Origin: an uncultured Collinsella sp.
GTDB lineage: Bacteria; Actinomycetota; Coriobacteriia; Coriobacteriales; Coriobacteriaceae
Length of the DNA stretch: 14,403 nt
Direction of reading: 5' to 3'
Assembly (NCBI GenBank): GCA_934654765.1
Contig: CAKUGX010000043.1
Coordinates: forward strand, 1 to 14,403
The position numbers were made by a program, and so were the translations under genes. The notes under the pieces are model-generated. The model saw nothing but the letters and a program-made list of their open reading frames with translations. It was not told the DNA's origin and made no database searches. Within the stretch, counting starts at the first letter, position 1. The number at the start of each line of letters is the position of its first letter. Positions 6,379-9,804 of this stretch are shown here, in pieces.

Positions 6379-7227
6379 CTACACCGCAATGGGGATGTTC
6401 TTGACCTGAGGGCCGTGCTCATAGCCCTCGACGATCAGATCATCGGTCGTAAACGCATAGAAGTCATGCACATCGGGGTTGAGCGTTACCTTGGGCGCAG
6501 CAAACTGCGGACGCTCAATAAGCTCGCGAACGATATCGACATGACGGTCGTAAATGTGGGCATCGGCAATCACATGCAGCAGCTCGCCAGCGATCATATC
6601 GACCGACTGCGCGACCATCATCAGCAAAATGGCGTACTGGCACACATTCCAGTTGTTCGCAGCCAAAATATCCTGGCTGCGCTGGTTGAGAATCATGTTG
6701 AGCGTCGGTTTATCATCCTGCGGACGCTGCGTCACGTTATACGTCACGCTGTAGGCACACGGATACAGGTGCATCTCGGACAGGTCGCTAAACACATAGG
6801 TGTTCGTCATAATGCGGCGGCTGTACGGCGTGTTCTTAAGGTCGTACAGCACGCGATCCATCTGGTCAAAGTCGCCCTCGGCATAATGGCTCTTCTGCCC
6901 AATCTGATACCCGTAGGCCTTGCCGATGGAGCCAGTCTCGTCGGCCCACTCGTCCCAAATATGGCTGTTGAGGTCATGCACGTTATTGGACTTCTTTTGA
7001 TAGATCCATAGGATCTCATCCATGGCAGATTTGAGGGCCGTACGACGCAAGGTAAGCGCCGGAAACTCCTCACGTAGGTCATAGCGTGCCGTGACACCAA
7101 AGTTTTTAATGGTATAGGCAGGGGTGCCATCCTCCCACACCGGACGGACCTTTTGGCCCTCGGTGGTGGTGCCATGGTCCAGAATATCGCGGCACATGGT
7201 TACAAAGTGTTGATCAGCCTTGCTCAT
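6379..7227 (-). CDS. thyA: Thymidylate synthase
   Basis: Folate-dependent enzyme converting dUMP to dTMP using methylene-tetrahydrofolate; 282 residues. The sequence follows the form seen in Bacillus ThyA and its phage relatives rather than the short E. coli form: EILWIYQKKSNNVHDLN (71-87), HIWDEW (89-94), IGKAYGYQIG (101-110), the phosphate-binding SRR (136-138), catalytic Cys157 in LYPCAYS, NQRSQD (181-186), NVCQYAILLMMVAQ (194-207) and the nucleotide-binding HIYDRHVD (224-231). The residue after the catalytic Cys is Ala, not His as in E. coli. The ATG at 7227 has AGGAGGG 4 nt upstream; the frame runs open to 7371, but that extension has no SD or family similarity. It is first in a thyA-folA unit and divergent from the DUF134-NifX gene. 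Confidence 0.96.
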   Translation of the reverse strand: MSKADQHFVTMCRDILDHGTTTEGQKVRPVWEDGTPAYTIKNFGVTARYDLREEFPALTLRRTALKSAMDEILWIYQKKSNNVHDLNSHIWDEWADETGSIGKAYGYQIGQKSHYAEGDFDQMDRVLYDLKNTPYSRRIMTNTYVFSDLSEMHLYPCAYSVTYNVTQRPQDDKPTLNMILNQRSQDILAANNWNVCQYAILLMMVAQSVDMIAGELLHVIADAHIYDRHVDIVRELIERPQFAAPKVTLNPDVHDFYAFTTDDLIVEGYEHGPQVKNIPIAV

Positions 7228-7261
7228 TGACCCTCCTGTCAGTCGCCTAAAAGCGAGATTC

Positions 7262-7267
7262 ATTGTA
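7262..7267 (-). promoter_or_regulatory. Candidate -10 box of thyA
   Basis: Reading leftward, TACAAT (5 of 6 consensus) follows GGGA and lies about 35 nt before the thyA start codon. No good -35 hexamer is found 16-18 nt upstream. That position is instead occupied by the inverted repeat at 7280-7297, which could mean activator or repressor control. Confidence 0.4.
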
Positions 7268-7279
7268 TCCCAGGCGCGC

Positions 7280-7297
7280 AGTGTCGGATTGGACACT
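7280..7297. repeat. Inverted repeat in the thyA promoter region
   Basis: AGTGTC (7280-7285) and GACACT (7292-7297) are exact reverse complements with a 6-nt spacer. The repeat covers where the thyA -35 box should be, so it is a candidate regulator site. A 6+6 repeat can occur by chance. Confidence 0.3.
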
Positions 7298-7364
7298 TGG
7301 GTCGGCACACGCAATGCGCGGCAGCCAGCACCCCCACAATCGCAGACGTAACAACTTTGAATTT

Positions 7365-7430
7365 CTGACATATGCTAAAAAAGCTTGCGCGGAACCGCAT
7401 ACACGCTATCCTATTACTGACATATGTCAG
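7365..7430. promoter_or_regulatory. Paired CTGACATATG elements, candidate operators
   Basis: CTGACATATG occurs at 7365-7374 and again at 7417-7426. The second copy is part of a perfect 14-bp palindrome, CTGACATATGTCAG (7417-7430), 13 nt before the ATG of the DUF134-NifX gene. The copies are 52 bp apart, close to five helical turns. A weak promoter (TTGCGC at 7385, 16 nt, TATCCT at 7407) lies between them and would start transcription at about the palindrome. The layout suits looping repression or autoregulation by the DUF134 helix-turn-helix protein; this is inference. Confidence 0.5.
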
Positions 7431-7443
7431 ATTTGGAGAGAGT

Positions 7444-8208
7444 ATGGCAGGAAGACGCGAAAAATTACGCCGTGTTGGGATCATCCCCGAATATCGCGGC
7501 TTTACCCCCGACGGCCTTGCCAGCGGAGACGCCATCGAGATGACGGTCGATGAGCTCGAAGTACTGCGCCTGTGCGACCTGGAAGGCCTCAATCAGGAGG
7601 CCGTCGCCCAGCACATGGGCATCGCCCGCGCCACCGTGGCGGCCATCTGCAGCCGCGCACATCGCAAGGTGGCAAACGCGCTGGTCAACGGGCGGGCGCT
7701 CGTCATCGAGGGCGGCAATATCGCGTACTCCCCCATCACCGCAACGACGGCCGCATGGCCAGCAAAGGAGGTCGACACCATGAGGGTGGCAACCACGTAC
7801 GACAACGGCAACATCTTTATGCACTTTGGCCGCAGCGAGCAGTTCAAGATCTACGACATTCAGGATGGCAAGGTACTCAACGAGCAGGTCGTGGGCACCG
7901 ACGGCACCGGTCACGGTGCCCTTGCGGGCCTGCTCGCCAACGGTGGCGTGGACACGCTCATCTGCGGCGGCATCGGCGGTGGCGCCATCAACGCGCTTGC
8001 CCAAGCCGGCATCACGGTGTACGCAGGAGCTCAGGGCAGCTGCGACGCTTGTGTCGAGGCCCTTATCGCCGGAACGCTCGCACAGAACGGCGAGGCCACG
8101 TGCGGCTGCCACGGCCATGACCACGACCACGCCCACGAACATGGCGAGTCCTGCAGCTGCCACGGCCATCACGAGCACGAGGGCCACGAGGGCTGCGGCT
8201 GCCACTAA
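7444..8208 (+). CDS. DUF134 HTH regulator fused to NifX-type domain with Cys/His tail
   Basis: A 254-residue three-part protein. Residues 1-93 are DUF134-like, a small winged/sigma-like helix-turn-helix family, with IPEYRGFTPDG (14-24), MTVDELEVLRLCDLEGLNQ (33-51) and the recognition-helix region MGIARATVAAICSRAHRKVA (58-77). Residues 113-215 match the dinitrogenase iron-molybdenum cofactor-binding domain (NifX/NifB C-terminus): VATTYDNGNIFMHFGRSEQF, GHGALAGLLANGGVDTLICG, GGIGGGAINAL and a CDAC motif at 200-203. Residues 220-254 hold three Cys-x-Cys motifs and 12 histidines, a probable metal-binding tail. The Cys pair I remember near the start of many DUF134 proteins is absent here (LRRVGIIPEYR). 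The ATG at 7444 has GGAGAG 3-5 nt upstream. The likely role is a metal- or Fe-S-responsive regulator, which is inference. No nitrogenase gene is present. Confidence 0.88.
   Translation: MAGRREKLRRVGIIPEYRGFTPDGLASGDAIEMTVDELEVLRLCDLEGLNQEAVAQHMGIARATVAAICSRAHRKVANALVNGRALVIEGGNIAYSPITATTAAWPAKEVDTMRVATTYDNGNIFMHFGRSEQFKIYDIQDGKVLNEQVVGTDGTGHGALAGLLANGGVDTLICGGIGGGAINALAQAGITVYAGAQGSCDACVEALIAGTLAQNGEATCGCHGHDHDHAHEHGESCSCHGHHEHEGHEGCGCH
7764..7782 (+). promoter_or_regulatory. Internal ribosome-binding site and in-frame start
   Basis: AAAGGAGG (7764-7771), 8 nt of spacer and ATG (7780-7782) lie within the DUF134-NifX gene, in frame at codon 113, exactly at the first residue of the NifX-type domain (MRVATTYDNG). 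It is a stronger SD than the gene's own. Translation from here would give a 142-residue free NifX-like protein with the Cys/His tail. Confidence 0.6.
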
Positions 8209-8271
8209 CGGCACTGCACCGCGAGCTCGGGGCGCGACGCTGAACGCAGCCCAACTATCAAAGCCAACAAC

Positions 8272-8303
8272 AAAGGCCACCCGGTAGCTTCCGAGTGGCC
8301 TTT
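8272..8303. terminator. Terminator between convergent ffh and DUF134-NifX genes
   Basis: AAAGGCCAC (8272-8280) pairs with GTGGCCTTT (8295-8303), and an inner CGG/CCG extends the stem around a 6-nt loop. On the minus strand the one mismatch becomes a U-G pair and the stem is followed by TTTGTTGTT, so it serves ffh best, 25 nt past its stop. On the plus strand it has a C/A mismatch but could still end the DUF134-NifX transcript, 63 nt downstream. Confidence 0.7.
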
Positions 8304-8328
8304 GCCATATCAAGCTGGAATTACAGCC

Positions 8329-9804
8329 CTATTTCTTATTGCGCATCTGCGCTTCCATCTGGCGCAGCAGGTCCATATCGGACTTAGGACCACCCGTTCC
8401 CAGGCCGCCCATGCCGCCCAAGCCCATGGCATCCAGACCGGGAATATTGGGCATGCGCATCTTCTTGCCCTTCTTGCCCTTTTTGCCCTTCTTGCCGCCG
8501 GCCTGTGCCTGATTGGCCATCGTGCGCATGCGGCCCATCATCTTGTTCATCTCGCCCCACTGCTTCATAAGGCTATTGACCTCGGTGGGGGTCACACCGG
8601 CGCCCTTGGCGATACGCGCGCGACGCTGGCCGTTGATGATGGAGGGACGCAGACGCTCCTCCTTGGTCATCGACATGATGATGGCCTCGTTCTTGTCGAA
8701 GATGCCCTCGTCCAGGTTACCGCCCATCTGGTTGAGCGCGCGCTGGCCACCGGGGAGCATGCCCAGGATACCCTTCATGCCGCCCATCTTTTTGACGGCT
8801 TTCATCTGGTCGAGCATGTCGTTCATGGTAAAGCCCTCGCGCAGCATGCGCTCGGCAGCCTCGAGCTGTTCGGCATCGGCGGCCTCCTGGGCCTTCTCGA
8901 TGATGCCGACAACGTCGCCCATGCCCAAGATTCGCTTGGCCATGCGATCGGGATAGAACGGCTCAAGCGAATCGGGTTTCTCGCCCATGCTCACAAACTT
9001 GATGGGCTTGCCGGTCACCTGACGCACCGAAAGCGCGCCACCGCCACGGGCGTCACCGTCGAGCTTGGAGATAATCACACCATCAAAGTCGGTGCGCTCA
9101 GCAAACGTCGAGACCACGTTGACGATATCCTGGCCGGTCATGGCGTCGACGACCATCAGCACCTGGTCGGGCTTGACGGCCTTCTTGATGTCGACGGCCT
9201 CCTGCATCATCTGCTCGTCGATCTGCAGGCGGCCGGCGGTATCGACGATGACCACGTCACGCAGGTGGTCGACGGCCTCCTGGATGGCGCCCTTGGCGAT
9301 GTCGACCGGATGCTCGCCGTCACCGCGGAAGACCGGCACGCCGATCTCGCCACCGAGCGTGGCAAGCTGGTCGGCAGCAGCGGGACGGTAGACGTCGCAC
9401 GCGGCGAGCAGCGGCGAGCGGCCCTGCTTCTTGAGCAGGTAGGCAAGCTTTACGGCAGCCGTGGTCTTACCGGAGCCCTGCAGGCCCACGAGCATGATGA
9501 CATTAGGAATGCGGTTGCTAAAAACGAGCTTGCTCTCGGTTGAGCCAAGCATCTCGGTGAGCTCGTCGAGCACGATCTTGACGACGTTTTGCGCCGGCGA
9601 CAGCGACTCCATGACCTCGGCGGTCATGCAGCGCTCCTTGGTCTTAGCAACGAACTCCTTGACGACCTTAAAGTTAACGTCGGCCTCGAGCAGCGCCATG
9701 CGAATGTCGCGCATGGCCGAGGTGATATCGGCCTCGGTCAGCTTACCCTTGCCGCGCAGGCGGTCAAATGTGTCGTTGAGGCGATCGCTCAGAGAATCAA
9801 ACAC
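8329..9804 (-). CDS. ffh: Signal recognition particle protein Ffh
   Basis: GTPase subunit of the signal recognition particle. It binds 4.5S-type RNA and signal sequences of nascent membrane proteins and delivers ribosomes to FtsY. The 491 residues comprise the N domain (1-90), the G domain with GLQGSGKTT (107-115), DTAGRLQ (188-194) and SKLDGDARGG (246-255), and the methionine-rich M domain (about 325-430) with the RNA-binding PSIINGQRRARIAKGAG (387-403). After it comes a lysine run (KKGKKGKKGKK, 438-448) and a Gly/Met-rich tail to residue 491, longer than in E. coli Ffh (453). The start codon is GTG at 9804 with AAGGAG 6 nt upstream. That SD overlaps the ftsY stop codon, implying coupling. 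Confidence 0.97.
   Translation of the reverse strand: MFDSLSDRLNDTFDRLRGKGKLTEADITSAMRDIRMALLEADVNFKVVKEFVAKTKERCMTAEVMESLSPAQNVVKIVLDELTEMLGSTESKLVFSNRIPNVIMLVGLQGSGKTTAAVKLAYLLKKQGRSPLLAACDVYRPAAADQLATLGGEIGVPVFRGDGEHPVDIAKGAIQEAVDHLRDVVIVDTAGRLQIDEQMMQEAVDIKKAVKPDQVLMVVDAMTGQDIVNVVSTFAERTDFDGVIISKLDGDARGGGALSVRQVTGKPIKFVSMGEKPDSLEPFYPDRMAKRILGMGDVVGIIEKAQEAADAEQLEAAERMLREGFTMNDMLDQMKAVKKMGGMKGILGMLPGGQRALNQMGGNLDEGIFDKNEAIIMSMTKEERLRPSIINGQRRARIAKGAGVTPTEVNSLMKQWGEMNKMMGRMRTMANQAQAGGKKGKKGKKGKKMRMPNIPGLDAMGLGGMGGLGTGGPKSDMDLLRQMEAQMRNKK

Follow-up and report, generated by a model that had tools for sequence, protein, structure and literature searches.

A probable second translation start at the domain edge of the DUF134-NifX fusion gene in Collinsella and related fused genes

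A gene of an uncultured Collinsella sp. in which a DUF134 domain is fused to a NifX/ORP-like domain carries, in the linker between the two, a Shine-Dalgarno (SD) site and an in-frame start codon, and this second start, which widely differing anaerobes have retained, is probably real and used. The gene was studied within a contig stretch of 14,403 nucleotides, hereafter called the window (features in Table 1). On the evidence of comparison between species, the SD and the start codon at the domain edge are under selection at the level of nucleotides. The second start is strongly supported, while translation from 7780 and the roles of the two products are inferred. The explanation that we favour, and consider likely, is that the fused gene would be a two-product, self-regulated unit which yields a full-length repressor-sensor and a free NifX protein.

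Table 1. Position of the fused gene, its predicted products and its putative control sites in the window.
Feature	Position	Strand	Basis
Imperfect upstream dyad TGACATATGCTA, copy of the TGACATATGNCA operator candidate	7366..7377	.	position; comparison
Possible promoter TTGCGC-16 nt-TATCCT between the two dyads	7385..7412	+	by eye, weak
Perfect dyad TGACATATGTCA, candidate operator for autoregulation	7418..7429	.	comparison, genome counts
Ribosome-binding site (RBS) of the full-length protein, GGAGAGAG	7435..7442	+	sequence
DUF134-NifX fused gene, product of 254 aa	7444..8208	+	ORF and Pfam
DUF134 domain, residues 3-93; also a Sigma70_r4 (helix-turn-helix) match	7450..7722	+	Pfam, AlphaFold2 model
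Internal Shine-Dalgarno site AAAGGAGG	7764..7771	+	sequence, anti-SD pairing, codon choice
Internal start ATG, in frame, residue 113	7780..7782	+	sequence, AlphaFold2 model
Predicted free NifX/ORP-like protein, 142 aa	7780..8208	+	inference from comparison
His/Cys-rich C-terminal tail, common to both predicted products	8101..8205	+	sequence, model

A preliminary description of the window had placed the internal SD 8 nt before an in-frame ATG lying at the first residue of the NifX-type domain. This holds: the spacer is TCGACACC (7772-7779, 8 nt), and residue 113 opens strand 113-120, with which the C-terminal domain starts in the AlphaFold2 model; the predicted short product is a complete domain that starts at this edge. 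It may be noted that the model was made from 32 sequences and has a mean pLDDT of 75.7 and a pTM of 0.50, with pLDDT below 50 at the linker residues 99-102 and at residues 219-254. Both Pfam matches are above their curated cut-offs (77 bits against 27 for PF02001, that is DUF134, which we take to be the same family as UPF0251; 75.1 bits against 26.3 for PF02579, Nitro_FeMo-Co, the NifX/ORP-like domain, at residues 121-208). The match to the MrpORP profile NF041136 is below its cut-off (73.7 bits against 450), the ORP part alone being matched. By fold, the C-terminal half matches PH0822 (2yx6), TM1816 (1o13), MJ0327 (2qtd), the Desulfovibrio orange protein ORP (2wfb) and NifX (9ian), the match to NifX (E 1.5e-4) being weaker than those to 2yx6 or ORP. 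Free NifX genes start at, or a few residues from, the equivalent of the internal start of the window. No Rfam match was found within the window. Beyond the fused gene we observed by eye an inverted repeat, AAAGGCCAC...GTGGCCTTT (8272-8303), which separates it from a convergent ORF (8329-9804, ffh-like by eye) and is possibly a two-way terminator; the scan that was used for promoters lists just a 5-bp stem there.

The window's own sequence is unconvincing for a second start, because with the peptide fixed and the local codon usage kept, 46% of 500 synonymous shuffles pair with the anti-SD equally well or better (p=0.46). In the window there is a single copy of the exact pattern AAAGGAGG-N8-ATG, and a loose form with up to 2 mismatches gave 3 matches there against 2.45 expected, which is not significant. 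Folding of the mRNA showed the junction to be less structured than its flanks, but this is largely an effect of base composition. Also the close relatives cannot decide the matter on their own, as ordinary codon bias yields identical letters. The closest of them (L001-L020) are Collinsella with 92-97% identity, and of 24 distinct Collinsella genes 23 have AAAGGAG and the remaining one AAAGGGGG, the internal start codon being ATG in 22 and GTG, which can likewise initiate, in 2. Drift at synonymous positions, which had been suggested as a check on the site, is thus nearly absent here; this speaks in favour of the site, though weakly when taken alone. The comparison across species is decisive.

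For this comparison we collected fused genes through protein and Pfam searches; the peptide patterns of the protein search exclude the junction. The named sources include Clostridia, Spirochaetes and one Solobacterium, to which class searches around one Collinsella and one Blautia genome were added, and the 212 fused ORFs found reduce to 160 distinct genes and to 91 clusters at 70% identity. Anti-SD pairing was measured in nucleotides -20..-4 relative to the start, and other in-frame ATGs of the same loci, at least 25 residues past the first Met, were used as control; the control ORFs are non-overlapping and of at least 200 codons, but they are not all proven genes and give no genome-wide background for the strain of the window. 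Pairing of -5 kcal/mol or lower was found at 87 of the 91 junctions against 242 of 1245 control ATGs, and pairing of -7 kcal/mol or lower at 71 of 91 against 66 of 1245. Unfused NifX genes, taken as a positive control, reach these two levels in 66 and 48 of 70 cases, after 4 ORFs with the domain far inside and 6 Mrp fusions were set apart and with domain edges that are rough, since they were placed by profile. The strongest pairing was found for 9-mers that begin between -17 and -13 (mean down to -7.7), and a weaker second dip lies within the NifX coding part at +24..+27 (mean down to -4.0; 23% at -6 or lower). Most often, in 46 of 91 clusters, 7 nt separate the pairing from the start.

When starts up to nine codons upstream and up to three codons downstream of the domain edge were accepted, a width at which no control was scanned, a start codon with an SD was found in 90 of the 91 clusters at -4 or lower and in 88 at -5 or lower; in 83 the start codon is exactly at the edge. 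The sole exception is L051, which has Lys at the junction position, a poor SD and no start codon near the edge. Judged from its sequence, the internal site has been dispensable at least once. L051 may also be a natural case of a fused-only protein. In five other genes the start is shifted together with its SD, by 1, 1 and 8 codons upstream (L056, L219 and L214) or by two codons downstream (L275 and L281). Among the 7 distinct genes with Val at the site, 6 have GTG (L116, L189, L221, L227 and the Collinsella genes L004 and L006), and the seventh, L214 with GTA, has an SD and ATG eight codons upstream. An SD and ATG are also present at the junction in three out-of-sample plasmid loci, namely L384 of Treponema saccharophilum, L385 of Pusillibacter faecalis and L386 of Subdoligranulum; in the records of L384 and L385 the gene is annotated as a single CDS with one product, and L386 is a putative DUF134 fusion. 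In the Treponema locus, the gene after the fused gene (L384:2431-2823) is annotated as a C-GCAxxG-C-C family protein. In one relative from the genus set (G014:C9:98719-99559; L102, L115, L233) the match to the fused gene is divided in two, which looks like a frame break within the NifX part.

That the SD is kept at the nucleotide level beyond what the codons constrain, a point which the preliminary description had wanted checked in homologues, was borne out by the synonymous choices pooled over the 91 clusters. Linker identity and base information were taken from the 86 clusters whose edge residue is Met or Val, five junction residues (K, K, I, D, L) being excluded owing to shifted starts, a lost start or misplaced edges. 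In these, mean identity is 6.6% at linker residues -16..-7, so that the linkers can otherwise not be aligned, and 63% at NifX residues +1..+29. Single-base information upstream is above 0.8 bit at -15..-9 only, the next highest value being 0.72 at -3; the near-constant G at codon base 3 is largely built in (82 Met of 86), therefore it was not counted as evidence. Each of the three codon phases is used for the SD core (by 55, 30 and 6 clusters), and 86 distinct hexapeptides encode it in the 91 clusters, Arg-Glu, Gln-Glu or Gly-Gly peptides doing so in some. Synonymous shuffles gene by gene are weak (p<0.05 in 6 of 91 clusters), so codon choice was instead pooled over the 71 of 91 clusters that have Lys before Glu or Gly, with the expectation computed from the codon usage of each locus. 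A Gly that follows Lys is GGA in 49 of 56 cases against 17.9 expected (simulation P about 1e-5, the floor), and GGC, the commonest Gly codon of those loci, does not occur there at all (0 of 56). Lys is AAG in 15 of 15 cases before Glu against 7.2 expected (simulation P 2e-5), and in just 12 of 56 before Gly against 24.3 expected (P 3e-4 for the shortage). These counts assume independent clusters, an assumption that related lineages do not fully satisfy, but the three results agree, and together they indicate selection on the SD itself. Across the relatives, both the internal SD and its start are retained at the level of nucleotides.

The preliminary description had given DUF134 and NifX as separate adjacent genes in several anaerobes, and 17 such split pairs are indeed present among the fetched loci, in each of which a NifX ORF comes after a DUF134 ORF on the same strand. 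In four of them (L064, L068, L151 and L199) the DUF134 stop overlaps the NifX start by 4 nt, and in some (L179, L204, L287 and L291) a TGACATATGCC-like dyad lies between the genes. On the NifX tree, which has 163 rows (89 of them fused) after removal of rows of less than 90 residues and many unresolved forks, the fused label changes 29 times, and at least 10 of these changes are forced by well-supported branches. Because of these changes, fusion has evidently been gained or lost many times. The earlier reading, in which the stop between the genes is gone and the RBS kept, stands as to the retention of the second start, but the state is recurrent and not a peculiarity of Collinsella, since fused and free forms interchange on the tree. 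As a whole that reading is partly supported. It was correct about the site and about what the site probably means, whereas the fixed ratio of products and the heteromers that it also suggests stay putative.

Such interchange also means that some internal sites may be young relics, and the site as a whole could be an SD and ATG left over from recently fused neighbours and without present function; at the 4-nt overlaps, one indel would be enough to fuse the genes and leave the RBS where it is. We regard this as unlikely. One supported all-fused clade, which includes the window, keeps the SD and start in 7 of 7 rows and a second one in 10 of 11, with differing codon phases and turned-over linkers, and this speaks against simple relics. 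Also the codon choice across clusters shows selection, and start codons that have moved take their SD along. A short product could instead come from a separate, shorter mRNA, transcribed from a promoter within the DUF134 part, and it would need an identical SD; we hold this to be quite unlikely, as a consensus scan of 7200-8360 found no promoter, but it missed that of the fused gene itself too. It is very unlikely that the SD-like stretch only slows elongating ribosomes between the domains to aid folding, without initiation. Its position exactly at the domain boundary would suit such a pause, but a pause needs no start codon, yet nearly all clusters have one near the edge and most exactly there, at a preferred distance from the pairing. 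Finally, that the SD is a by-product of codon bias and of a needed Lys-Gly/Glu...Met linker motif is very unlikely and is contradicted by the pooled codon choice: Lys108 and Met113 show a conservation of 90% or more among 32 aligned proteins and the codons of the window are the usual ones, but the most used Gly codon is never taken, the Lys codon varies with the following residue in the way an SD would need, and other peptides spell the SD elsewhere.

The second start is accompanied by signs of autoregulation. A conserved dyad lies in the fused gene's own upstream region, the possible promoter there having been read by eye. Of the 91 fused representatives, 88 have 200 nt upstream and were used for counting; within about 200 nt, TGACATATGNCA is present exactly in 37 of the 88 and with at most 1 mismatch in 62, the remaining 26 having dyads with 2 or more mismatches, while shuffled upstream regions gave none at 0 or 1 mismatch. 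At the level of at most 1 mismatch, the dyad was found for 9 of 68 free NifX genes (shuffle average 0) and 12 of 57 DUF134-only genes (shuffle average 0.6), so that close copies are absent from most genes of these two kinds. In Collinsella, all 24 distinct genes have a copy or close variant of the 7366..7377 dyad at the matching place, and both dyad copies, which lie on either side of the possible TTGCGC/TATCCT promoter, stay while the spacer drifts. Six Collinsella genomes hold 11 distinct exact sites, 9 of them just upstream of the fused gene and two elsewhere (L361 and L362), and 12 Clostridia genomes hold the wider form TGRCATATGYCA 0 to 7 times each. Seven extra sites that were examined (L361, L362, L366, L367, L378, L381 and L382) revealed no shared target. 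Three of them are without the start of an ORF of at least 90 aa within 250 nt, two have an ORF start 184-191 nt away, and L382 and L362 have an ORF 53-70 nt downstream, that of L362 being an ABC-transporter ATPase by eye. The fused gene is thus, from these counts, the main visible target of the candidate TGACATATGNCA operator.

In the two-product, self-regulated unit that we favour, initiation at 7444 would give the full-length protein, whose DUF134 helix-turn-helix may bind and repress at the TGACATATGNCA dyads of its own promoter and whose NifX/ORP-like domain would be the sensor. A separate initiation event at 7780, for which AAAGGAGG would serve as the SD, would give the free 142-aa NifX/ORP-like protein with the His/Cys tail, a putative effector that may carry or store a metal or a metal-sulfur cluster and whose synthesis the DUF134 part would control. 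The dyad in front of some free NifX genes at split loci suggests that fusion joins regulator and target in one frame, and the second start would preserve the free target protein once they share it. More tentatively, the whole circuit of operator, repressor-sensor and effector might lie in one reading frame, with sensor and free effector as one polypeptide from two starts; the free form could then compete with the full-length protein for the cluster or pair with it and so set its own synthesis, and the NifX/ORP-like domain could be a detachable module that retains its own start whether it follows DUF134 or the unrelated Mrp.

The Mrp partner comes from MrpORP (NF041136), in which an Mrp ATPase is fused to the same C-terminal NifX/ORP-like domain. 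An SD with ATG or GTG is present at the NifX start in 9 of 13 distinct Mrp-NifX genes; the loci include L152-L155, L170 and L324-L327, and four of the nine (L152-L155) are close relatives. The others have no edge start (L332 and L335), a weak TTG (L331) or a GTG five codons inside the domain (L193). Internal starts in bacterial genes are already known, as the excerpts of the papers on AerR (PMC6199135) and SpaO (PMC13059759) show. According to the excerpt on SpaO, the sorting platform protein of type III secretion, one gene has an internal in-frame start at GTG203 whose short product, SpaO-short, is the C-terminal domain, and a similar short form exists in several systems (PMC13059759). SpaO is however a scaffold protein and not a regulator, and the same excerpt describes no alternation with split genes (PMC13059759). 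AerR of Rhodobacter capsulatus is described as a regulatory, cofactor-binding protein with a second in-frame start that has its own putative RBS, the long and the short form both having roles (PMC6199135). Its short form, as given there, starts at CTG and loses just about 40-50 N-terminal residues (PMC6199135), whereas in DUF134-NifX the short form omits the whole DNA-binding domain. In archaeal type I-B CRISPR, internal in-frame translation yields the needed small subunit Cas11b, as reported in the excerpt available, but this is another protein in another domain of life and not a transcription regulator (PMC11899642). A literature search of open-licence full texts listed none on the DUF134-NifX fusion or on its internal start. 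As far as this search can say, three things are new: that a DUF134-NifX gene has an internal start, that this start has persisted while the genes fused and split repeatedly, and that a shared dyad links the regulator with the effector.

Should ribosomes initiate at the second start, gut Clostridia, Coriobacteriia and Spirochaetes would make a protein that has so far been overlooked, and DUF134, to which no function is assigned, would gain a candidate DNA site in TGACATATGNCA and a candidate target in the NifX/ORP-like protein. A two-gene operon may in this way shrink to one frame with neither product lost, and codon choice in the linker may reveal hidden starts in other fused genes.
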